DNA from: Chloroflexota bacterium
Lineage (GTDB): Bacteria > Chloroflexota > Dehalococcoidia > SZUA-161
DNA: 49,239 nt
Reading direction: 5' to 3'
Assembly (NCBI GenBank): GCA_021787935.1
Contig: JAJYLC010000005.1
Coordinates: 1 to 49,239 of the forward strand
Shown: piece by piece, positions 26,241 to 49,239 of the stretch
How positions within the stretch are numbered: the stretch's first letter is position 1
How the letters are laid out: each line of letters starts with the position of its first letter
Made by a program: the position numbers and the translations under genes
The notes under the pieces: generated by a model
The model's input: only the letters and a program-made list of their open reading frames with translations
Told to the model about the DNA's origin: nothing
Database searches by the model: none

Positions 26241-26536
26241 AGGGAAAGGCTGAGAACAAGAGTAGTACGTTTCCTGCAAGGCTCAGAGAGCCGGGTTAAG
26301 GTGTGAGCCGGCGCCAGCGCAGAAGCGGAATGGGCTTGGGAGCTGCGAACTGAAATCATTCCGAGAGAATGAGAGTAAGCTTCGCCGGAGCGGGCACCGT
26401 TAACAGAGCCCAGGGTATCGCCCTCCCAGAAAAGGGCTGTACCCGAGAAGAGTGAGTTGTCGTTCCTTATTTCGGGAATTGATAGCTAATTAGGGTGGCA
26501 CCGCGGATTAAACCCCGTCCCTTGGACGGGGTTTTT
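26241..26536 (+). promoter_or_regulatory. T-box riboswitch (tRNA-Trp sensing) before trpE
   Basis: This stretch is a complete T-box leader. The specifier-loop 5' side has GAGTAGTACG at about 26259-26268, and the distal stem I has AGAGAG..GGTGTGAG at about 26285-26306. The specifier UGG is at 26331-26333, directly after GGAA and before a G and the CTTG strand that closes with CAAG at 26257-26260. The T-box core AGGGTGGCACCGCGG lies at 26492-26506. The terminator is a perfect 10-bp stem at 26511-26520/26524-26533 with a CTT loop and a following U run. Uncharged tRNA-Trp pairing with the UGG specifier and the T-box bulge would favour antitermination. This also accounts for the 411-base gap between mnmG and trpE. 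Confidence 0.95.
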
Positions 26537-30583: not shown

Positions 30584-31786
30584 ATGGATAACAAATTTAA
30601 ACTACCGGATGAACAAGGTCATTTTGGACTATATGGCGGTAAATTCGTGCCTGAGACGCTGATGCCCGCTTTGAGCGAGCTTGAATCGGCTTATGCTCAA
30701 GCTTGCGCAGACCAGACTTTTCAGCAGCAATTTTACTCACTTTGCCGCGATTACGCTGGCCGTCCCACACCGCTTTACCATGCGCAAAAACTGTCACGCA
30801 AACTGGGAGGTGCGCAAATCCTGCTCAAACGGGAGGATTTGCTACATACAGGCGCCCATAAAATCAACAATGCACTGGGGCAGGGCCTGCTGGCTCTTAA
30901 GATGAGTAAGCACAGGATTATTGCGGAGACTGGCGCCGGTCAGCATGGCGTGGCCGCCGCCACTGTATGCGCCATGCTGGGATTGGAATGTGTTGTTTAC
31001 ATGGGCGAAGAAGATGTACAGCGTCAATCTCTGAATGTTTTCAGAATGAAATTGCTCGGCGCTCAGGTGCGTTCGATCTCCACAGGGAGCCGTACTCTTA
31101 AGGATGCCATCAATGAAGCTATCCGCGACTGGGTGACCAATGTGCGCACCACTCATTATCTGCTAGGCTCCGTCGTCGGGCCTCACCCCTACCCCATGAT
31201 AGTGCGCGATTTCCAGTCTATAATCGGTCGAGAGACCAAGGAGCAGATAATGGCATCTCACGGCAGGCTTCCCGACTATATAATTGCCTGCGTGGGCGGG
31301 GGCAGCAATGCCATCGGCATCTTCCACCCCTTCGTCAATGACTTGAGTGTAAAGTTCATAGGAGTAGAGGCAGCAGGCCGGGGCATGAGAAATGGCAGCC
31401 ATGCTGCCACCCTGGTCGCTGGCCGGCCCGGTGTGCTCCACGGAGCAAAATCATATCTGCTGCAGGACAAACATGGACAGATAAGCGATACGAAGAGCAT
31501 TGCACCCGGCCTGGATTATCCCGGGGTTGGTCCGGAGCACAGCTACTACAAGGATACAGGGCGAGCAACATATGTTGCTGTTACAGATGAAGAGGCGCTG
31601 GAGGGATTCCAGCTTCTTGCTACCACCGAGGGCATAATTCCTGCCCTGGAGTCAGCTCACGCCGTATATTACGCCGCCCAAATTGCACCTAAACTTCCTA
31701 CAGACAAGCTTATAGTAGCTAACATCTCAGGACGGGGGGACAAGGACATCTCTATTGCGGCGGAGGCGCTAGGGGTGAAACTATGA
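30584..31786 (+). CDS. trpB: tryptophan synthase beta chain (TrpB1)
   Basis: This 400-residue PLP enzyme condenses indole with serine. The N-terminal [19 protein letters not shown] and the PLP lysine in [12 protein letters not shown] are present, as are [10 protein letters not shown], the GGGSNAIG phosphate clamp and the [12 protein letters not shown] block. It pairs with trpA immediately downstream (ATGA overlap) to form the normal alpha2-beta2 complex. A second, diverged beta gene lies two genes on. Confidence 0.97.
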
Positions 31787-32663: not shown

Positions 32664-34028
32664 ATGGACAAGCAAACCACAAAGATTCTACTGACTGAGA
32701 AAGAGATGCCAACTTCCTGGTACAACATTCAGGCCGACCTGCCTGAGCCACTGCCGCCATTGCGGCATCCACAGACCAAGGAGCCGACACGGCTTCCACC
32801 ACCAATTTACGCTGATGAACTCAACACACAGGAATTCAGCAAAGAGCGCTACATCGAGATACCGGAAGAGGTACAGGAAATCTACAAAATGTGGAGACCC
32901 ACACCCATGATTCGGGCTTTCAGACTGGAAAAAGCATTGGATACCCCGGCCCACATCTATTATAAATACGAAGGCGTAAGCCCTGCCGGCAGCCACAAGC
33001 TCAACACAGCCGTACCCCAGGCCTACTATACCAAAAAAGAGGGGATTAAACGCATAGCCACAGAGACCGGCGCAGGCCAGTGGGGCAGCGCTCTGGCTAT
33101 GGCCTGCCAGTTCTTCGGGCTGGAGTGCAAGGTCTATATGGTGAAGGTCAGCTACCACCAGAAGCCTTATCGCCGAGTACTTATGGAGACCTTTGGGGCT
33201 CAGGTAGTGGCCAGCCCTAGCCAGGACACGCAGATAGGGCGCAAGATTCTGGCAGAAGACCCGAACTCAACGGGCAGCCTGGGCATAGCTATCAGTGAGG
33301 CATGTGAGGATGCCTTCAGCCGCGAGGACACGCATTATTCCCTGGGGAGCGTGGTAAACCACGTGCTGCTTCACCAGACCGTTGTAGGACTGGAATCCAA
33401 GAAGCAGCTCGAGAAGATAGGCGTCTACCCCGACATCATCGTGGGCTGCATCGGCGGCGGCTCGAATTTTGGCGGCATGTTCCTGCCTTTTGTCAAGGAT
33501 AAGATCGAGAAGAAAAAACCCAAACTGCAAATCATAGCTGTAGAGCCCACAGCCTGCCCGACCGTCACCAAAGGCCTCTATGCCTGGGATTACGGCGACG
33601 TAGCCGGTATGGCCCCAATAGCCCTGATGTACACTCTGGGGCATTCCTTTGTGCCTCCTCCCGTACACGCAGGCGGCCTGCGCTACCATGGCATGGCACC
33701 AATCGTCTGCCACCTGCATAAACTGGGATTCATCGAGGCACGTGCCGTGAACCAGATACCAACCTTCCAGGCGGCAGTGCAATTCGCACGAGCAGAGGGT
33801 ATCGTACCGGCACCCGAGCCGGCTCACGCCATAAAAGTAGTTATCGACGAAGCCCTCAAGTGCAAACAGTCAGGCGAGAAGAAGAACATACTGCTCGCCC
33901 TGAGCGGACACGGGCACTTCGACCTGGGCGCTTACGAGAAATACCTCGCCGGTCAACTAGAGGACTATGAATATCCTAAAGAGAAAGTGGAAGAAGCCCT
34001 CAAGCAACTGCCCAAAATACCGGCGTAG
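32664..34028 (+). CDS. trpB2: TrpB2-type tryptophan synthase beta-like enzyme
   Basis: This 454-residue PLP enzyme is of the longer TrpB2 branch, recognised by the N-terminal extension ([16 protein letters not shown]), [16 protein letters not shown], the PLP lysine in [29 protein letters not shown] and [13 protein letters not shown]. TrpB2 proteins are found in archaea and some bacteria. They make tryptophan from free indole and serine, usually without tight TrpA binding. It lies 53 bases after trpA behind GGAGGGGA and is followed by the operon's hairpin. Confidence 0.95.
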
Positions 34029-39165: not shown

Positions 39166-39184
39166 AGCGGTTTCGTAAACCGCT
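39166..39184 (+). repeat. duplicate of the tRNA-Thr anticodon arm (hairpin)
   Basis: Eighteen bases (39166-39183) are identical to the anticodon arm of the tRNA gene at 39278-39295. With one more base they form a perfect 8-bp stem with a CGT loop. No T run follows, so it is not a usual terminator. Confidence 0.85.
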
Positions 39185-39253: not shown

Positions 39254-39325
39254 GCCAGCGTAGCTCAGCGGCAGAGCAGCGGTTTCGTAAACCGCCGGTC
39301 GTCGGTTCAAGTCCGACCGCTGGCT
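39254..39325 (+). tRNA. tRNA-Thr (anticodon CGT)
   Basis: The 72 bases fold into a full cloverleaf. The acceptor stem is GCCAGCG/CGCTGGC, the D stem is GCTC/GAGC, and the anticodon stem GCGGT/ACCGC has the loop TTCGTAA, giving CGT. The variable loop is short, and the T stem GTCGG/CCGAC has the loop TTCAAGT. The discriminator base is T. No 3' CCA is encoded, so the CCA-adding enzyme is needed. Confidence 0.97.
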
Positions 39326-39373
39326 TTGTTTATTTCCACCCCCAATTACCCAGATAAATAACAATTAAAAGTT

Positions 39374-39400
39374 AAGCAGGTCAGCGAAGCTGACCTGCTT
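39374..39400 (-). terminator. terminator of the mutase operon
   Basis: A perfect 12-bp stem (39374-39385 with 39389-39400) with a 3-base loop is followed, on the minus strand, by AACTTTTAATT. It lies 30 bases past the stop of the last crotonase gene and could also stop transcription coming from the tRNA side. Confidence 0.75.
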
Positions 39401-39431
39401 ACTATCTTCCTATCTTGCGCCAACGACGCTA

Positions 39432-40229
39432 TTACTTACCCTTGAAATTCGGTTTTCTCTTCTCAAGGAAGGCTTTGGCTCCCTCTTCAGCATCCTCTGT
39501 CTTGAAGATGTCTGAGAAGAGATGAGCTTCGTTCTCTATGCCTGCCCTGACGCCCATCTCCATGGCGGCCTGGATGCTCTTCTTGGTAGAATCAAGCGCC
39601 ACAGCGCCTTTTGACATCAGCTTTTTCACCATGGCGTTGACTGCGTTCTCCAGCTCCGCCGGCGGCACCACCTGGTTGACCAAACCTATGCGATATGCCT
39701 CTTTAGCATCGATGGGGTCGCCAGTGAGGCACATCTCCATAGCCTTGCTTTTTCCCACCAAGCGGGTCAGCCTCACACTCCCCCCACCGCCGCACATAAT
39801 GCCCAGCTTAATCTCGGGCTGGCCGAATTGAGCGGTCTCCGAGGCTATCCTGATGTCGCACCCCAGGGCTATCTCCGAGCCCATGCCGAAGGCAATCCCG
39901 TTGACTGCAGCGATGACAGGCTGCGGCAGGTCCTCCAGCATATTGGGACTGAAGTACACCTTGTGGTCGTCAATGACCTTCCCGCCCTTTTGGGTTATCT
40001 CCACCCATCGGAATATCGTCTTGTCTATGTCTGCGCCAGCCATAAAGGCGCGGTCTCCTGCACCTGTCATGACCACCACTCTGACTTCCTTATCGCTGGC
40101 GATGCCCTTTACGGCTGCTTTAAGCTCGTCCGACATCGTCGGGTTAAAGGCGTTCAACACCTGAGGCCTGTTAAAGGTTATCTTGCAGACTCCCTCTTTT
40201 TTCTCTACGAGAATTGTTTCGTAAGCCAT
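39432..40229 (-). CDS. enoyl-CoA hydratase/isomerase family protein (crotonase 1)
   Basis: This 265-residue crotonase has the oxyanion-hole segments AFMAGADI and NGIAFGMGSE. Both catalytic glutamates of a hydratase are present, Glu119 in GMGSEIALGCDI and Glu139 in FGQPEIKLGI. It is therefore a plausible hydratase that adds water to a 2-enoyl-CoA. It is the last gene of the operon, 42 bases after the B12-binding subunit. Confidence 0.92.
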   Translation of the reverse strand: MAYETILVEKKEGVCKITFNRPQVLNAFNPTMSDELKAAVKGIASDKEVRVVVMTGAGDRAFMAGADIDKTIFRWVEITQKGGKVIDDHKVYFSPNMLEDLPQPVIAAVNGIAFGMGSEIALGCDIRIASETAQFGQPEIKLGIMCGGGGSVRLTRLVGKSKAMEMCLTGDPIDAKEAYRIGLVNQVVPPAELENAVNAMVKKLMSKGAVALDSTKKSIQAAMEMGVRAGIENEAHLFSDIFKTEDAEEGAKAFLEKRKPNFKGK

Positions 40230-40271
40230 CGCACTCTCCTTTTATAGTTCAGTTGCAGCCAACTTAGCTGC

Positions 40272-40679
40272 CTACTTCTTCTGCAGAGGCACCTCTGTTT
40301 TCACCAGCTCTATAAACTGATTCACGTCCGAACCGGCACCAAATATCGCTCTGACGCCCTGCTTCTTGAGCATCTCATGGTCTTCGTCCGGGATGACTCC
40401 TCCCAGGACGACCATCACGTGGTTCAATTTGTTCTTCTTCAACCCTTCCATCACCCTAGGAAGATGGGCTTCATAGGCGCTGGTGAAGAAGCTCATACCT
40501 ATAACATCCACGTCTTCCTGTATAGCCATCTTCACCACTTCTTCCGGCTGGCTGTAGCTGGCATAAACTACCTCAAAGCCTGCGTCCCGGCAGCGGGATG
40601 CAATCAGCCTCAAACCTCTGTCATGGATATCGATCCAGTGCTTCACCAGCAGAACCTTCGGCCTTCCATTCTTAGACAA
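40272..40679 (-). CDS. cobalamin-binding subunit of an acyl-CoA mutase
   Basis: This 135-residue Rossmann-like domain binds B12 base-off/His-on. The DxHxxG motif is D17-I-H19-D-R-G22, an SFF triad stands where SxL is usual (residues about 63-65), and LGGVIP supplies the Gly-Gly. In the usual methylmalonyl-CoA mutase this domain is fused to the large chain; here it is a separate gene, as in archaeal and isobutyryl-CoA mutases. It lies immediately downstream of the large-chain gene. Confidence 0.93.
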   Translation of the reverse strand: MSKNGRPKVLLVKHWIDIHDRGLRLIASRCRDAGFEVVYASYSQPEEVVKMAIQEDVDVIGMSFFTSAYEAHLPRVMEGLKKNKLNHVMVVLGGVIPDEDHEMLKKQGVRAIFGAGSDVNQFIELVKTEVPLQKK

Positions 40680-40721
40680 TTTCGTACCCCCCTTTCACAA
40701 AAGTAAGACGGGCTGTCGTCT

Positions 40722-42425
40722 CTAGAACTTCAGCATTACGTTGTACTCAGGCCCCCATCTCATCACTTTCCGCAGCGCCTTCGAGATCTCCCCCGCGGTG
40801 GCGTGCGCCTTAGCAGCCTCGATGCAGGCAGGCATCACATGGCCGTATTCGCCCGCCTTCAGCTTCTTGCAGGCCTCGACCACGCCGTTGAGCGCCGCGT
40901 CGGTCTTCGCCTGGTCTCTGCGCTTCTTGTATTCCTTGGTCCGCTCAATAGAAATCCTGGCGACCTCGGGGTCGGGCCTGAACGCTTTGACCTTGAGAGC
41001 TTCTTCAGTCTGATATTTGTTCCAACCCACTACTATTCTCTTGCCTTTATCTATCTCGTCCCTCCACTGATCACAGCCCCTTCTCAGTACCGTAGCCAGC
41101 ACTCCAGCCTTATGTGCTTTGACAAATCCCCCCGCATCGTCGATTTCCTTGAGGATTTTCTCCCCCTCTTCCTCCATCCGCTTGGTCAGCCACTCAACAT
41201 AGTAGGAGCCTGCTAACGGGTCGCCGACTCTGGTTATCCCTGTCTCATGTACCAGAATCTGCTGTATCCTCAGCGTCAGGATAGCAGACTCCTCGGTGGG
41301 GATGCCAATAGGCTCGTCGTAAGCCGGTATCTGCATTGCCGTCGTACCTGAAAGCGCTGCACCCAGAGCGTGGTAGGCGCTGCGAATGATATTGTTCAAC
41401 GGCTGCTGCTTGACCAGCTCGAAGCAAGAGGTGTTGGTATGCGTTCTCAGGTGCATGGCGGCTGGCTTCGTTGCACCGTATCTCTCTCGCGTAATCCTGG
41501 CCCAGAGCTTTCTCCAGGCCCTGAACATACAGATATACTCAAAGAAGTCATTGCACTGCGCTATCTGGAAACCTATGCCGGTCAGGAAATCGTCGGGATT
41601 CAGACCGGCAGCCTTGCATGAGTCTGCAACGGCTCTGGCGGTGCCAAGGCAGAAGCCCATCTGATGTATGGCATCGGCGCCGGTCTCCGATATTGCGTGT
41701 CCCTGTATATTCGTGTGGTTCCAGCGGGGGATATTCTTAACGCAGAAGTGTATATTTTCGGTGGCCAGTTTCAGTGCGTCCTCGGTTTCCCACATAAAAT
41801 TCGGAGCATACCAGGCGGTAAACACCCAGTTCATGGTGTTGCCGCGCAGGTTGCCCCTCAGCACACCTCTGTTCTCAGCGTAAGCTATATAGAGAGCGAA
41901 CATAGGGAGGGTGTCGCCATTTATGAGTATGATGTTGTTCTTAGCGATGTCTAACCCGTCAAGCATGCGGGCGAAATCGTCTAGAGTGTTGCAGGAAACC
42001 CCGTCTTTCCCGATATAGCCTTCGGCATCAGGCTCGTCGGGGTCAATTCCGAAGTAGCCGGGATAGTCCCATACCAGGTTGTAGCTCCTGGCTCCAAAGT
42101 AGCCCTCCATACCGGCCTTGGTCAGAGCATCCATTCTTTCTTTGGTGTGCTCGGGCAGACCGTATCCGTGCACCGGCTGGTTAACCCAGGGCTGGTACTG
42201 GTAGTGAATGGGATAGTTGCTTCTTATATACGGATAAGACCCTGGCATAGCAATGTCTTTGGCATAGTCGATGTCCTGGATGTCCAGCGGCGTGTAAACA
42301 GGCTTCAAAGGGATACCGGAGTTCGTCTTGGCTGCGAAATCCTTGCCCTGGTATATCTTGTTAATGGCTTCCTTCCATTGCTCCTGAAGCTTTTTAGCTT
42401 CCACTAAAGTCTTTTCATCAAACAT
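40722..42425 (-). CDS. divergent B12-dependent acyl-CoA mutase, large (TIM-barrel) subunit
   Basis: This 567-residue protein aligns along its length with the catalytic barrel of the methylmalonyl-CoA mutase family (for example GVSCNTLDDFARML, PRWNHTNIQGH, ETGADAIHQM, LRTHTNTS, GITRVGDPLAGSYYVEWLT). The substrate pocket is different. At the positions of Propionibacterium Arg207, Tyr243 and His244 it has Trp205, His243 and Ala244, by hand alignment anchored on PKWN/PRWN and EAGA/ETGA. The RPWTIRQYAGF block is replaced by YQPWVNQPVHGYGL with a longer lead-in. A carbon-skeleton rearrangement of some acyl-CoA is likely. Methylmalonyl-CoA and isobutyryl-CoA are both doubtful as substrates. Confidence 0.88.
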   Translation of the reverse strand: MFDEKTLVEAKKLQEQWKEAINKIYQGKDFAAKTNSGIPLKPVYTPLDIQDIDYAKDIAMPGSYPYIRSNYPIHYQYQPWVNQPVHGYGLPEHTKERMDALTKAGMEGYFGARSYNLVWDYPGYFGIDPDEPDAEGYIGKDGVSCNTLDDFARMLDGLDIAKNNIILINGDTLPMFALYIAYAENRGVLRGNLRGNTMNWVFTAWYAPNFMWETEDALKLATENIHFCVKNIPRWNHTNIQGHAISETGADAIHQMGFCLGTARAVADSCKAAGLNPDDFLTGIGFQIAQCNDFFEYICMFRAWRKLWARITRERYGATKPAAMHLRTHTNTSCFELVKQQPLNNIIRSAYHALGAALSGTTAMQIPAYDEPIGIPTEESAILTLRIQQILVHETGITRVGDPLAGSYYVEWLTKRMEEEGEKILKEIDDAGGFVKAHKAGVLATVLRRGCDQWRDEIDKGKRIVVGWNKYQTEEALKVKAFRPDPEVARISIERTKEYKKRRDQAKTDAALNGVVEACKKLKAGEYGHVMPACIEAAKAHATAGEISKALRKVMRWGPEYNVMLKF

Positions 42426-42451
42426 GTATACCTACCTCCTTTATTCTGCCA

Positions 42452-43216
42452 CTATCTACCTTTGAACTGCGGTTTCCGCTTCTCTTTGAAGGCCTTCATG
42501 CTCTCAGCAACATCCTCGCTGGAAAAGATAGTCGGCATCATGAGAACTGTCCAATCCCAGTCCTCATGGCACTTGCGGTTCAATACCCTCTTAATCATTC
42601 TCTGGGCCAGCGGTGCACCCTGCTTCATTCCTTCCGCTATCTTCATGACCTCCGGCATCAACTGGTCGTGGGGAACTACCTTGTTTATCAGTCCCACGGC
42701 CTTGGCCTCTTCGGCTGTGAAAGTGGCGCCGGTTAAAGTCATGTACGAAATGGTGCGCTTGCCAATGTGTTCGGCCCCTCGGAGCAGCGTCTCTATCGGT
42801 ATCTGGCCCCAGTTGACCTCCTTGGTGCCGAATTTAGCCTTATCGGAGGCAATAACAATATCGCAGGCAAGGGTTATACCTGTGCCGAAGCCAAATGCGT
42901 ACCCATTGACAGCCGCAATTACCGGTTTAGGCAGGTACTCGATATGCATAAAAGGCCGGGCCACGTTCTCGATGAATTCCACACCCTTGATGATTTTGTC
43001 GAACTCGAACTTCCCTACGTCAGCTCCTGCGCTGAAGGCGTCACCTTTGCCGGTGAGTATGACCACCCTGATACTGTCGTCCTTTTCGATATCAGTCAGA
43101 GCGTCATCGAGGTCTTTGAACACCTGCGGGCTGGCGGCGTTCAGCTTATCGGGACGATTGAAGTAGATGGTTGCTATACCGTCCTTCTTCTCAAGCAGTA
43201 TGGTCTCGAAGTTCAT
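42452..43216 (-). CDS. crotonase-fold protein lacking one hydratase glutamate (crotonase 2)
   Basis: This 254-residue crotonase has AFSAGADV and NGYAFGFGTG oxyanion-hole segments. At the position of the first catalytic glutamate (Glu119 of crotonase 1, Glu144 of rat enoyl-CoA hydratase) it has Gly113, while Glu133 in FGTKEVNWG matches the second. A further Glu142 lies nearby. A plain hydratase reaction is therefore unlikely; isomerase, hydrolase or C-C-cleaving roles are known in such crotonases. It lies between the CoA-transferase-like pair and the mutase. Confidence 0.88.
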   Translation of the reverse strand: MNFETILLEKKDGIATIYFNRPDKLNAASPQVFKDLDDALTDIEKDDSIRVVILTGKGDAFSAGADVGKFEFDKIIKGVEFIENVARPFMHIEYLPKPVIAAVNGYAFGFGTGITLACDIVIASDKAKFGTKEVNWGQIPIETLLRGAEHIGKRTISYMTLTGATFTAEEAKAVGLINKVVPHDQLMPEVMKIAEGMKQGAPLAQRMIKRVLNRKCHEDWDWTVLMMPTIFSSEDVAESMKAFKEKRKPQFKGR

Positions 43217-43264
43217 AAACTGTTCCCCTTTCTCCTTAAGTTAGTCATCAATTTCATAAGCTAT

Positions 43265-44122
43265 TTATGCGTAGCCGATAGCTTGCAACTCTTTATTCAG
43301 CATTTCCTTCAAATAACCTAATCTCTCCTTGCCAGGCTTGAAGTCGAAATTCAGTGTGCCGTAAGGGTCTACCTCCTCTCTTAGCAGCCTGACCTGTTCC
43401 TCTGTAGGTTTCTCAGTCTCAGGGATACTCGATGGGACTTCCAGTGGGAAGCCGGTGTTGCTGACCACATCCTCTGCTTTAACGCCCGGATGCAGGAAGT
43501 CTATCCTGAAGGGTTTGTCCCTCTCTTCTTTGGTCATGACGCAGAGATTAGTGATATAGCGTATAGGGCCGGGTCTATAGCCTGACTTGATTCGCTCCTG
43601 CGCTCCGATAAGGTATCTGGTGCCCGTTATCACATCGACCTTGGGAACGAAGGTCATCTTGGAATGCCCTGGGAAGTAGCCTATCATCTTGCGGTGCATC
43701 TTTATTACCTCGGGCGCACCGGCTCCGCCGGGTCCGCGCAGCTTCGGCCTATCATATTCCCCCACCACTGAAAGGTTGATATTACCGTATTGGTCTGCCT
43801 GAATACTCGATATAGCCTCGACGTCGCCTCTTCCCTTTAAGTGAACGGAGTTGAGGTCTTCCAGCATAGTCCACATAAGGGCAGATCCCCTTGTGGCGGA
43901 GGACTCAGCCCGGATAAACGAGAGTTGGAATGGCCTGAAATCGACTGCGGCGTAAGCGAGCAGGCAGCTATTCGGCGCGTGGGTAATCTTCGCCAGGATA
44001 TAGCTGGCATAGGCAAGCGGGGTAAACGAGCCCAGGACGACTACATCGCCATCTTCAATCTCTTTCGCCAGGGTGACGCACATCAACTCGCCGACGGTAT
44101 AGTCTTTAGCATACTGCTTCAT
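43265..44122 (-). CDS. class I CoA-transferase-fold beta subunit, catalytic Glu apparently absent
   Basis: This protein of about 285 residues starts at ATG 44122 (MKQYAKDYTV), overlapping the alpha stop by 4 bases with GGAGG upstream. The open frame runs further up, inside alpha. The glutaconate CoA-transferase beta fold is recognisable (GELMCVTLAKEIEDGDVVVLGS, SIQADQYGNINLS, GPGGAGAPEV). Where CoA-transferases carry the Glu that forms the acyl-CoA anhydride (FES/FEN context), this has LLAYAAVDFRP (about residues 54-64). That is what is reported for IpdB-type ring-cleaving hydrolases, but the comparison is from memory. Confidence 0.88.
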   Translation of the reverse strand: MKQYAKDYTVGELMCVTLAKEIEDGDVVVLGSFTPLAYASYILAKITHAPNSCLLAYAAVDFRPFQLSFIRAESSATRGSALMWTMLEDLNSVHLKGRGDVEAISSIQADQYGNINLSVVGEYDRPKLRGPGGAGAPEVIKMHRKMIGYFPGHSKMTFVPKVDVITGTRYLIGAQERIKSGYRPGPIRYITNLCVMTKEERDKPFRIDFLHPGVKAEDVVSNTGFPLEVPSSIPETEKPTEEQVRLLREEVDPYGTLNFDFKPGKERLGYLKEMLNKELQAIGYA

Positions 44123-45015
44123 AGGAACTTTACCTCCCTTGCTAGTCTGCGCAGGATAGACGCCTGGCGCATGCCACCGATAGCTTCCAGATATTCCCAC
44201 TCGGGCTTCATCACGTAATCCTGTACGTATTTTTTGAATGTCTCAGCGCTGGCTGCATATTCCATGTACTTCATGATGTGCCAGGCATCGAATACATAAT
44301 GAGGAGCGCACGACGTGGGATGGGCGCCGAGCGGAGCCTCTATAACCATGTCTACCTGGAATTTGGGCACCTTAGTCTTCTCAGGGTGCTTCCATATCTC
44401 TTCGCTGGGCACTACTTCCTCTACCGACACAATCCTCTTCTTCGCCGCCCTCATCATCTCGATGTCAGTTCCTGTCGTGCCTTCCATCTGGATATTTCCG
44501 GTTTTGTCAGCCCGCACCGCGTGAATAATGGCTACGTCAGGCACAATAGCGGCAGCTGCTATAAGCTCTTCTCCGGTGAAGGGACATTTTATGTTTTTAT
44601 AGAACTCGGGTCTGTATTTCACTAGGTCAGAGCCGAAGGGCCCGCGGTAGGGCAGGAACGGCACATTTCTTCCACCTGCCTCCAGGCCTATGATTACGGC
44701 CAGCCCCGTTATCTCGTCATAGGGCAACCCCTCCTTCTCAATCGCCCTGCGGAAGTTGGGAGCCAGACCAAACGCCTCCATGCTCACAAATGAAAACATC
44801 AGCCTTTTAAGGCAACCAGCCCCTATGAGCAGGTCGATATCTATGCTTCCCACGACAGTTATGGCTGTCAGGTCCTTGATTTTGGAGCGTATGATCTCGC
44901 GGATTATGGCCATTGGATGGCCGCCCAACCAGGAGCCTCCTATTGCCACTTTGTCCCCATCTTTGATGATTTTGGTGATGTCGCTCAGTTTCCCAACCTT
45001 GTTTTCAATGGGCAT
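44119..45015 (-). CDS. class I CoA-transferase-fold alpha subunit (IpdA-like)
   Basis: This 298-residue protein has KIIKDGDKVAIGGSWLGGHPMAIIREIIR at its N-terminus, then AIIHAVRADKTGNIQMEGTTG. That is the pattern of glutaconate CoA-transferase alpha and its relatives. The middle region EGLPYDEITGLAVIIGLEAGGRNVPFLP contains Glu101, a candidate for the acidic residue used by IpdA-type enzymes. It begins with GGAAGGGA before the ATG and is the first gene after a strong promoter. Confidence 0.88.
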   Translation of the reverse strand: MPIENKVGKLSDITKIIKDGDKVAIGGSWLGGHPMAIIREIIRSKIKDLTAITVVGSIDIDLLIGAGCLKRLMFSFVSMEAFGLAPNFRRAIEKEGLPYDEITGLAVIIGLEAGGRNVPFLPYRGPFGSDLVKYRPEFYKNIKCPFTGEELIAAAAIVPDVAIIHAVRADKTGNIQMEGTTGTDIEMMRAAKKRIVSVEEVVPSEEIWKHPEKTKVPKFQVDMVIEAPLGAHPTSCAPHYVFDAWHIMKYMEYAASAETFKKYVQDYVMKPEWEYLEAIGGMRQASILRRLAREVKFL

Positions 45016-45120: not shown

Positions 45121-45155
45121 ATTTTAACAACGTCGAAGGCGACTGTCAACAGTCG
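45121..45155 (-). promoter_or_regulatory. promoter of the mutase operon with overlapping inverted repeat
   Basis: On the minus strand TTGACA (45149-45144) and TAAAAT (45126-45121) are 17 bases apart, nearly consensus. CGACTG-TCAA-CAGTCG (45140-45155) is a perfect inverted repeat covering the -35 box, an ideal repressor site. The leader to the alpha gene would be about 100 bases; I see no cobalamin riboswitch in it. Confidence 0.75.
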
Positions 45156-45158
45156 TGC

Positions 45159-46610
45159 TCATTCGCCGAGAATCATGCGGGCAGCGCGCAGCCCGGATAA
45201 TGCTACCGCGGGCACGCCGCCGCCGGGCATGGTCCAATGCCCTGCCAGATAGAGGTTGGGGATGGGAGTCTTTTGCTCCAGCCTTTTCATAAACATCTGC
45301 GGGGAGAAAGCCCATCCCATGGCCGCACCCCGCGTATTCAGGGTATACCTTTCATAGGTAAGAGGCGTAGCAGCATCCTGTACTACGATATGCTGTGAGA
45401 GGCCTGGAATGAGCTTCTCGGCCTTGGCAATAAGGTTCCTGGCGAACCTATCTTTCTCCTCCCGCCAGCTTTTACCCGCCAGATTGTAGGGCGCCATGGT
45501 CATAACAATGACAACATGCTTGCCTGGCGGCGCCAGGCTGGAATCAACCAGCGTAGGAATCGCGATTCCAAAGCAGGGTACGGCAAGCTCGCCTTTTAAT
45601 AGTCGATTCCACTCTTCCGTATTATCGTAGGCTTCATAAACTATGGTCTCCAGGGCATCGACACCTGTCGTCCTGGGATCAATATCAACACCCAGGTACA
45701 CATAGAATGCTGACAGGCTTATTTCGAGCCGGTTTAATGCTTTGACAAAATCTTGGGGCAGGTTCTCTTCGCCTACCAGGTTGAGGAACATGGTCCTGGC
45801 TGCTACATTTGACACGACTTGCGCTGCCCGAACCTGTTTCCCCTTTTTTGTTTCGATGCCCGCAGCTTTACCTTTCTCCAGAATAATCCTGTCCACAAAG
45901 GTCTTGTACTCTATCTCACCGCCATAGCCCTTTAGGGTTCTGACAAGGGTGTCCGGCACTGTTTGAATCCCTCCGAGTGGATAAAAATAGCCGCGAGTCT
46001 GCTCGGTGACCAGCAGGGCGGCATAATCTATTGCTGAGTTATTCCAGGGGGGATACCAGAGGTGCCAGTTGGCGTTAACGAGAGCTTTTAATTTTGCATC
46101 CTTAATGTGCTCATCGACCAGTTCCTGAAACGACCTCTCACTGTACTTCGTTAGTAAAGGTGATAATGTAGGTAGTTTTTTGATGTCTTCGTATACTGAT
46201 TTTATTATGTCAAATAAATTTGTTATCCCTTTGCTTTCCCCGGGAAACAGCTCTTTTAGCTTCCCGGGCAAGTCCCCCGCGTCCCTGCTACTGTCCAGCG
46301 TCAGGCCTGGGAAGATAAAACGCTGAAACTGCTCTTTGAGCTTGAATTCATTTTCTATTTCCAGAGCGGAGAGGACTCGCTGGAAAGCCCCGCTCTCCTT
46401 GCCTCCCGTCAGGTGCAGGACGCCCGCATCGAACCTGAAACCCTTTCTGGAGAATGAGGTGCAGCAGCCACCGGGAGTATGATGTTGCTCGAATACCTTG
46501 ACCTTCTTGCCTTTCTTCGACAGATAGGCTGCACAGGTCAACCCCCCAATCCCCGCCCCTATCACCACCACGTCGTATTCTTCATCGAAATGCCCGGTTT
46601 GTTTGGACAA
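45159..46610 (-). CDS. CrtI/phytoene-desaturase-like FAD oxidoreductase
   Basis: This 483-residue flavoprotein has the N-terminal FAD motif GAGIGG at 18-23 in VVVIGAGIGGLTCAAYLSKKG, then the HTPGGCCTSF segment and a C-terminal NLYLAGHWTMPGGGVPAVALSG FAD closing motif. It belongs to the carotenoid desaturase / retinol saturase / NAD(P)-FAD amine oxidase-like group, which dehydrogenates or reduces long hydrophobic polyenes and rings. No carotenoid synthesis genes are near. It follows the Old Yellow Enzyme gene by 23 bases and is probably co-transcribed with it. Confidence 0.88.
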   Translation of the reverse strand: MSKQTGHFDEEYDVVVIGAGIGGLTCAAYLSKKGKKVKVFEQHHTPGGCCTSFSRKGFRFDAGVLHLTGGKESGAFQRVLSALEIENEFKLKEQFQRFIFPGLTLDSSRDAGDLPGKLKELFPGESKGITNLFDIIKSVYEDIKKLPTLSPLLTKYSERSFQELVDEHIKDAKLKALVNANWHLWYPPWNNSAIDYAALLVTEQTRGYFYPLGGIQTVPDTLVRTLKGYGGEIEYKTFVDRIILEKGKAAGIETKKGKQVRAAQVVSNVAARTMFLNLVGEENLPQDFVKALNRLEISLSAFYVYLGVDIDPRTTGVDALETIVYEAYDNTEEWNRLLKGELAVPCFGIAIPTLVDSSLAPPGKHVVIVMTMAPYNLAGKSWREEKDRFARNLIAKAEKLIPGLSQHIVVQDAATPLTYERYTLNTRGAAMGWAFSPQMFMKRLEQKTPIPNLYLAGHWTMPGGGVPAVALSGLRAARMILGE

Positions 46611-48939: not shown

Positions 48940-49239
48940 ATGATAGGTATCACTTCATATGGAGCATACATTCCTTTGTTGCGTATAAATCGCAAGCTTA
49001 TTTCCTCTGCTACAGGATGGTTGGGTTCGGCAAGTGCCTTGCCCGGCGAGAAGGCGGTGGCAAATTACGATGAGGATAGCCTCACCATGGCTGTAGCTGC
49101 TGCCGTGGATTGTTTGAGAGGAATCGAGCGTGAAAAAGTAGACGAACTGTATTTCGCCACCACCACATCGCCATACAAGGAGAGGCAGGGGGCAGGTATA
49201 GTTTCCACAGCTCTTGACCTCCGTGCAGACATCAGGGCT
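48940..49239 (+). CDS. HMG-CoA synthase / 3-ketoacyl synthase III-like protein (partial, runs off right edge)
   Basis: The first 100 residues are visible, from MIGITSYGAYIPLLRINRKLI. SYGAYIP, NYDEDSLTMAVAAA, VDELYFATTTSPY and QGAGIVSTALDL are hallmarks of the HMG-CoA synthase / acyl-carrier-protein synthase III thiolase-fold group. The catalytic Cys lies beyond the edge. In Chloroflexi such proteins often pair with a thiolase and a DUF35 zinc protein, which would be just outside. It is divergent from the reductase operon. Confidence 0.85.
   Translation, partial: MIGITSYGAYIPLLRINRKLISSATGWLGSASALPGEKAVANYDEDSLTMAVAAAVDCLRGIEREKVDELYFATTTSPYKERQGAGIVSTALDLRADIRA

Follow-up and report, generated by a model that had tools for sequence, protein, structure and literature searches.

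A conserved six-gene operon with an atypical B12 mutase in a family-level lineage of Dehalococcoidia: candidate genes for the anaerobic breakdown of an acyl-CoA

What does a conserved operon do when several of its enzymes have lost the residues that define their textbook reactions? The question is raised by six genes on contig JAJYLC010000005.1 (assembly GCA_021787935.1) of an uncultured Dehalococcoidia bacterium, which was analysed over 49,239 nt (hereafter the window, to which all positions refer). The six minus-strand open reading frames at 45015–39432 encode a coenzyme A (CoA)-transferase-fold pair, two crotonases and a two-part B12 mutase; all are intact, co-directional and tightly packed, with an ATGA overlap at the CoAT-A/CoAT-B junction. 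A Pfam/NCBIfam scan of their products gave CoA_trans twice, ECH_1 twice, MM_CoA_mutase and B12-binding. In order of transcription, the features are:

45121..45149, minus strand: sigma-70-type promoter, TTGACA-17-TAAAAT, 11/12 to consensus
44119..45015, minus strand: CoAT-A, CoA-transferase-fold subunit A, 298 aa, PF01144
43265..44122, minus strand: CoAT-B, CoA-transferase-fold subunit B, 285 aa, PF01144, with LLAYAAVD at the Glu54-equivalent site
42452..43216, minus strand: crotonase 1, 254 aa, ECH_1
40722..42425, minus strand: mutase large subunit (mutL), 567 aa, PF01642 (MM_CoA_mutase), of an atypical clade
40272..40679, minus strand: mutase small subunit (mutS), 135 aa, cobalamin-binding, PF02310, TIGR00640 above cut-off, TTG start
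39432..40229, minus strand: crotonase 2, 265 aa, ECH_1, PRK05809-like, of the ordinary short-chain enoyl-CoA hydratase type
39373..39401, minus strand: intrinsic terminator, 13-bp stem with 7 GC pairs and a T-run

The operon formed by the six genes is genuine and conserved, and it belongs to a larger locus. The first-pass annotation had described six genes on one strand with a near-consensus promoter and a clear terminator, which the intact reading frames, the 11/12 promoter and the 13-bp stem confirm; to this is added that the locus extends upstream into two oxidoreductase genes and a divergent gene that begins at 48942. That the six genes are served by a promoter of their own is best supported by its conservation: a promoter matching at 11/12 or 12/12 with a 17-base spacer lies upstream of CoAT-A in loci L037, L012, L013, L014 and L015 (10/12 in L022), the flanking DNA has diverged in all of these except the congeneric L037, and dinucleotide shuffles reached 11/12 in at most 1/2000 per leader. 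No cobalamin riboswitch was found in the operon leader at the Rfam gathering threshold. The ratio of nonsynonymous to synonymous substitution rates (dN/dS) is 0.015–0.091 across the six genes against a same-genus genome, the comparison being limited to this pair since dS is saturated for more distant ones. The genes are therefore under strong purifying selection, and gene decay is rejected.

Which reaction could the CoA-transferase-fold pair carry out? By score, it is about equally distant from AibAB, IpdAB and glutaconate CoA-transferase (GctAB). CoAT-A matches AibA, IpdA and GctA of the PDB at 115–120 bits, AibA being marginally best (120 vs 115), and CoAT-B, taken as a single sequence, matches GctB (1poi) at 96, AibB at 66 and IpdB, the lowest, at 59 bits. 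GctAB thus shares the fold and provides the top match of CoAT-B, yet the catalytic Glu54 of GctB, expected of a class I CoA-transferase, is gone from CoAT-B (Ala/Tyr in the window protein) and from every orthologue of its clade, in the window's family (f1) and in family f46 alike; a distant relative on contig C41 of the same genome keeps it. CoAT-A has Gly in all orthologues where the IpdA chain 6coj has Ala; we take 6coj to be the E105A mutant, so that the position would be that of Glu105, presumably a functional residue of IpdA. AibAB, the 3-methylglutaconyl-CoA decarboxylase (5mzw), is likewise a Glu-less heteromer of this fold, and AibA and CoAT-A both have Gly at the Glu105 site. Two pairs that are not transferases have replaced Glu54: IpdB has Gly there (PMC5380842), and AibB has Cys56, which is not strictly needed since its Ala variant is active (PMC7756340). 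CoAT-B lacks this Cys too. By its key residue, CoAT-AB is likely not a CoA-transferase and would rather cut a C–C bond, either hydrolytically or by decarboxylation. The first-pass proposal that the substrate is hydrolytically opened went too far, since the sequence does not separate these two outcomes.

In every f1 and f46 orthologue, crotonase 1 has Gly at the E144 position but retains Glu at E164, and so departs from the two-Glu pattern of enoyl-CoA hydratases; it was first described as Glu-lacking, which is right for E144 but not for E164, one Glu being lost rather than both. Its G/E pattern is, we assume, that of delta3,delta2-enoyl-CoA isomerases and of hydroxycinnamoyl-CoA hydratase/lyase. 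In the NCBIfam ranking, which gives family scores only, EchA19/short-chain enoyl-CoA hydratases come first and MenB lies outside the 25 best; EchA20 has been reported to cluster with MenB (PMC5380842). Crotonase 2 keeps Glu at both positions, as an enoyl-CoA hydratase should.

The mutase departs furthest from its family. PF01642, PF02310, TIGR00641 and TIGR00640 are all above their cut-offs, as for a methylmalonyl-CoA mutase (MCM), and MutS keeps the DxHxxG motif as DIHDRG. However, MutL has V/M/P/H/A at Y89/Q197/R207/Y243/H244 (P. shermanii numbering), so that Y89, R207 and H244, which bind the substrate and its carboxylate, are V, P and A; R82, R283 and Q330 are altered too, and there is a 6-residue insertion. 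The pattern is neither that of isobutyryl-CoA mutase (ICM; Phe/Gln at Y89/R207 with H244 kept) nor that of 2-hydroxyisobutyryl-CoA mutase (HCM), whose Ile90/Asp117 positions are Val/Val. The PDB holds Y89F and H244A mutants of MCM, and Y89 and H244 are therefore studied active-site positions. The first pass had proposed trees, and the maximum-likelihood tree of the mutase separates the window clade (100/100; 100/99 when joined by the protein of genome G007) from HCM, MCM and ICM-like proteins. No member of the window clade has kept the substrate residues, and the same genome encodes two further mutases elsewhere in the tree, one with the MCM residues (L004, Y/Q/R/Y/H) and one ICM-like (L003, F/Q/Q/Y/H). 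The top Foldseek matches of the MutL model are HcmA (4r3u) and methylmalonyl/isobutyryl-CoA mutases; the AlphaFold model is poor (pLDDT 64.7, 13 sequences), adequate for the fold and not for the pocket. MutLS thus shares with HCM, MCM and ICM its domain, its fold and a separate small B12 subunit with DxHxxG, and with HCM an aliphatic residue at Y89, but differs in its low identity to them (28–32%), its replaced Q197, R207, Y243, H244 and R283, the missing Asp117 of HCM and its insertion. As the domain and the DxHxxG motif are intact, cobalamin radical chemistry should be kept. With R207 (carboxylate) and Q197/H244 (thioester) lost, the substrate is probably non-carboxylated and held differently from those of known mutases. 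The first-pass count of three activities out of five without their textbook residues is borne out by CoAT-B (Glu54), crotonase 1 (E144) and the mutase (the five positions from Y89 to H244).

How far is this set of genes conserved? Scanning GTDB species genomes turned up 13 loci, of which 12 belong to Dehalococcoidia/Chloroflexota metagenome-assembled genomes (MAGs) and one to a Desulfovirgula MAG (64% identity). In a sample of 294 Dehalococcoidia, and at the cut-off used, the mutase clade is present in 9/9 genomes of f1 and 0/285 others, the next-best matches in the Chloroflexota sample having 37–38% identity. In the neighbourhood comparison suggested at first pass, the order CoAT-A, CoAT-B, crotonase 1, mutL, mutS, crotonase 2 is kept in L037, L039, L044 and L015; L043 is without crotonase 2. 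Contig C117 of the same genome carries a second cluster with a fused CoAT-AB, a both-Glu crotonase, mutL (69% identity), mutS, a divergent second mutase pair and an acyl-CoA ligase, and this type is found again in G094 (L018/L040) and also in L020, where no crotonase is listed. Five genomes from two other families have CoAT-B orthologues at 61–64% identity, and in G007 (family f10) CoAT-AB has a mutase of a sister clade (~42% identity) ~7 kb away and on the same strand. The latter locus adjoins a BKACE enzyme, an acetophenone-carboxylase-like subunit and, named by eye, an acetoacetyl-CoA-synthetase-like gene (L065:12372-18691). In Desulfovirgula (L021) the mutase runs into the contig end, and 2-hydroxyacyl-CoA-dehydratase-type subunits and BadF/BcrA-type activators lie near it (L021:2348-6329). 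The cluster appears in two places with overlapping mutase halves in L019 and L022 (CP070819, bin1158), probably by misassembly of the MAG. We found no description of the cluster in the open-access literature.

Around the operon, the window holds further genes that may bear on its role:

45159..46610, minus strand: CrtI-like FAD oxidoreductase, a conserved upstream neighbour in L012, L013, L037 and L039
46634..48682, minus strand: old yellow enzyme (OYE)/BaiCD-type enoate reductase (FMN/Fe-S/FAD), PF00724, TIGR03997 below cut-off, present in L010/L037
48942..49239, plus strand: 5' end of a fusion of a PhlA-like or 3-hydroxy-3-methylglutaryl-CoA (HMG-CoA) synthase (HMGS)-like protein with DUF35, divergent, stopping at the contig end, with intact homologues in L012/L037
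34293..35315, plus strand: MeaB/ArgK-type G-protein chaperone for B12 mutases, 4 kb from the operon, named by eye from its translation

The CrtI-like gene is probably transcribed separately. Contig C153 of the same genome likewise begins within the HMGS-like gene (L069:3-1296); the window's contig and C153 therefore probably adjoin, with this gene spanning both. On C153 it is followed by a PRK06157 thiolase, a short-chain dehydrogenase/reductase (SDR), AbfD2, FAS1_DH, an acyl-CoA ligase and an acyl-CoA dehydrogenase. Among known proteins, PhlA and the archaeal thiolase/HMGS/DUF35 complex come nearest to the HMGS-like protein. The latter lacks the HMGS nucleophile Cys and the genome has no HMG-CoA reductase, which rules out a role in the mevalonate pathway. 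Downstream in other genera stand AbfD, a 3-hydroxybutyryl-CoA dehydrogenase and an SDR. AbfD is a clear 4-hydroxybutyryl-CoA dehydratase (564 bits to 1u8v, CxxxC/HxxxYxxC ligand motifs kept), though it lies outside the six genes and, in the window's genome, on another contig. Taken together, the neighbours are of the acyl-CoA-degradation type: AbfD, 3-hydroxybutyryl-CoA dehydrogenase, SCP2-type thiolase, FAS1_DH/MaoC, SDR, acyl-CoA ligase and acyl-CoA dehydrogenase.

Other features of the region were recorded alongside. Directly past the operon terminator, on the opposite strand, is a tRNA-Thr (CGT anticodon, 39254-39325, plus strand), with a partial copy (GCGGTTTCGTAAACCGC-like) at about 39166-39183; where the window has this tRNA and a PrsW gene, the operon of L037 is followed by a CobQ-like cobyric acid synthase gene (L037:16431-17951, named by eye). 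A T-box leader (111.8 bits, 26243-26525, plus strand) stands just upstream of a trp cluster with anthranilate synthase from 26561 on (named by eye) and is followed by two TrpB-type genes (30584-31786 and 32664-34028).

The explanation that we favour, at roughly even confidence, is that the six genes form a sigma-70-transcribed operon for the anaerobic breakdown of one acyl-CoA in a family-level lineage of Dehalococcoidia, combining C–C cleavage with a mutase rearrangement. We prefer it because gene order and promoter are conserved across genera, dN/dS is low and a paralogous cluster exists in the same genome; because a Glu-less CoAT-B and a single-Glu crotonase 1 are conserved in f1 and f46; and because the mutase clade is distinct and has the neighbours just listed. 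An operon dedicated to an acyl-CoA, as first proposed, is thus supported by the linkage of all six genes across genera and by the probable non-transferase pair. From the observed gene content, operon structure, conservation, residue losses and neighbours, we infer the individual chemical steps, their order and the catabolic direction. CoAT-A/B, no longer transferring CoA, would cut a C–C bond of a beta-oxo or gamma-carboxy unsaturated acyl-CoA, by IpdAB-like hydrolysis or AibAB-like decarboxylation. Crotonase 1, with the E164-type acid only, would shift a delta3/delta2 double bond or perform a hydratase/lyase step. MutL/S, loaded with cobalamin by the MeaB chaperone, would perform a radical shift of the thioester-bearing carbon on an acyl-CoA that is probably non-carboxylated, as the carboxylate-binding Arg is missing, and may thereby move a branch that blocks beta-oxidation. 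Hydration of a short enoyl-CoA by crotonase 2 would follow, and the route to acetyl-CoA would be completed by a dehydrogenase, a thiolase and enzymes of the 4-hydroxybutyryl-CoA dehydratase type, whose genes lie nearby or elsewhere.

Several observations weigh against this predicted pathway. In f46, among genomes with a long enough fetched contig (G052, G148, G192), CoAT-A, CoAT-B and crotonase 1 (59–61%) occur without a mutase, in a similar cluster with an HMGS-like::DUF35 protein, PRK06157 thiolase, 3-hydroxybutyryl-CoA dehydrogenase, second crotonase, acyl-CoA dehydrogenase and SDR. The module of CoAT-AB, crotonase 1 and thiolase/HMGS-like genes is therefore older than, or separable from, the mutase, which is not an obligate partner and may belong to a different pathway step; the genes do occur partly apart outside the family, which had been named at first pass as evidence against the idea, but not inside it. 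Also altered are the residues with which the mutase would contact the thioester (Q197, H244) and CoA (R82, R283), and the substrate might therefore be something other than a normal acyl-CoA. The HMGS-like neighbour lacks its nucleophile, and in the genus of the window AbfD lies away from the operon, the genome's own copy being on contig C13. Finally, when 20 atypical were compared with 20 canonical mutases (12 tests, nominal p values, related rows), crotonase was found near 11 vs 3 (p 0.02), CoAT-AB near 5 vs 0 and HMGS-like genes near 5 vs 0 (p 0.05), a weak enrichment; most insertion-clade mutases beyond the window clade and G007 (L110, L112–L116) are without these neighbours, so we do not propose that all atypical mutases share such a cassette.

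Could a known pathway account for the operon instead? A crotonase may dehydrate an HMG-CoA-like compound, CoAT-AB decarboxylate the resulting 3-substituted glutaconyl-CoA to a dimethylacrylyl-type CoA, the OYE and CrtI-like enzymes reduce it and MutLS isomerise a branched acyl-CoA of the pivalyl/isovaleryl type. This is unlikely, though AibA is marginally the top PDB match of CoAT-A, which shares its Gly, AibB with Ala in place of Cys56 is still active (PMC7756340), HMGS-like::DUF35 and thiolase genes are conserved neighbours in f1 and f46, and without HMG-CoA reductase these are not mevalonate genes. Yet the supply of HMG-CoA is putative; the HMGS-like protein has no nucleophile Cys; AibB scores no higher against CoAT-B than its relatives GctB or IpdB; and crotonase 1 lacks the E144 acid of the textbook hydratase/dehydratase. 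Rather improbable to us is a hydrolytic opening of an alicyclic, steroid- or terpenoid-like ring by CoAT-AB and crotonase 1 with MutLS downstream, the reading closest to the ipdAB/echA20 parallel drawn at first pass. DUF35 and SCP2-thiolase families take part in steroid side-chain cleavage as well. The parallel is only partial: it is weakened by the Glu105 position, presumably functional in IpdA and Gly here; by crotonase 1, which has E164 and whose family scores place it nearer EchA19/short-chain hydratases than MenB; by the scores of AB, about equally close to AibAB and GctAB, with IpdB lowest for a single sequence; and by the added B12 mutase. What stands of it is the grouping of a Glu-less pair and a crotonase with SDR, flavoenzyme and thiolase genes, which is shared with the steroid ring hydrolases IpdAB and EchA20 and recalls the HIP module (PMC5380842).

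A route from isobutyrate or valine, in which a crotonase forms 3-hydroxyisobutyryl-CoA, MutLS converts it to 4-hydroxybutyryl-CoA, AbfD yields crotonyl-CoA, and crotonase 2, 3-hydroxybutyryl-CoA dehydrogenase and thiolase lead to acetyl-CoA, seems improbable. It would fit the conserved presence, in several genera, of every enzyme type from the mutase on, the short-chain character of crotonase 2 and the Val at the HCM Ile90 position, but it gives no role to CoAT-AB, crotonase 1 or the HMGS-like gene, the genome has a separate ICM-like mutase (L003), and the loss of H244 and Q197 would be odd for so small a thioester. An ordinary propionate operon, or decayed genes, is very improbable: family models do call the large subunit methylmalonyl-CoA mutase, but the substrate residues are lost throughout the clade, all of them are present in a separate MCM (L004) and dN/dS is low. 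A propionate operon is rejected on the first two grounds, and ordinary propionate metabolism, which the first pass had also set aside, is unlikely given separate MCM-like and isobutyryl-type mutases in the genome.

Perhaps the mutase represents something wider than this operon. Of 40 further mutase loci in the class, the majority show the pattern of MCM or of ICM, but forms without H244 turn up repeatedly, some with the insertion (window clade, L070, L082, L083, L084, L087, L088, L099) and some without it (L075, L076, L078–L081). It is plausible, if somewhat short of even, that MutLS is a new reaction class of B12 carbon-skeleton mutases, one of an H244-less Dehalococcoidia radiation (window clade, G007, G024, G197, G041, G059, G138, G279 and several non-insertion members), for a bulky or branched non-carboxylated substrate possibly bound unlike a normal acyl-CoA, with a Glu-less CoA-transferase-fold partner that cleaves C–C bonds. 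Separately, H244-less mutases were seen in many Dehalococcoidia genomes (L070–L109), and in G007, which by itself has 12 mutase matches, roughly half or more are non-canonical and some adjoin thiolase157/HMGS-like::DUF35 genes (L118, L122).

To our knowledge, the reactions described so far for B12-dependent acyl-CoA mutases are few: those of MCM, ICM, ethylmalonyl-CoA mutase, HCM and the pivalyl-CoA type. A conserved operon around a mutase that lacks the known substrate residues points to an undescribed step of anaerobic degradation, and since its partner genes are fixed, the substrate can be sought with purified enzymes. Moreover, the survey of the class suggests that Dehalococcoidia hold many such mutases, likely annotated automatically as methylmalonyl-CoA mutase.

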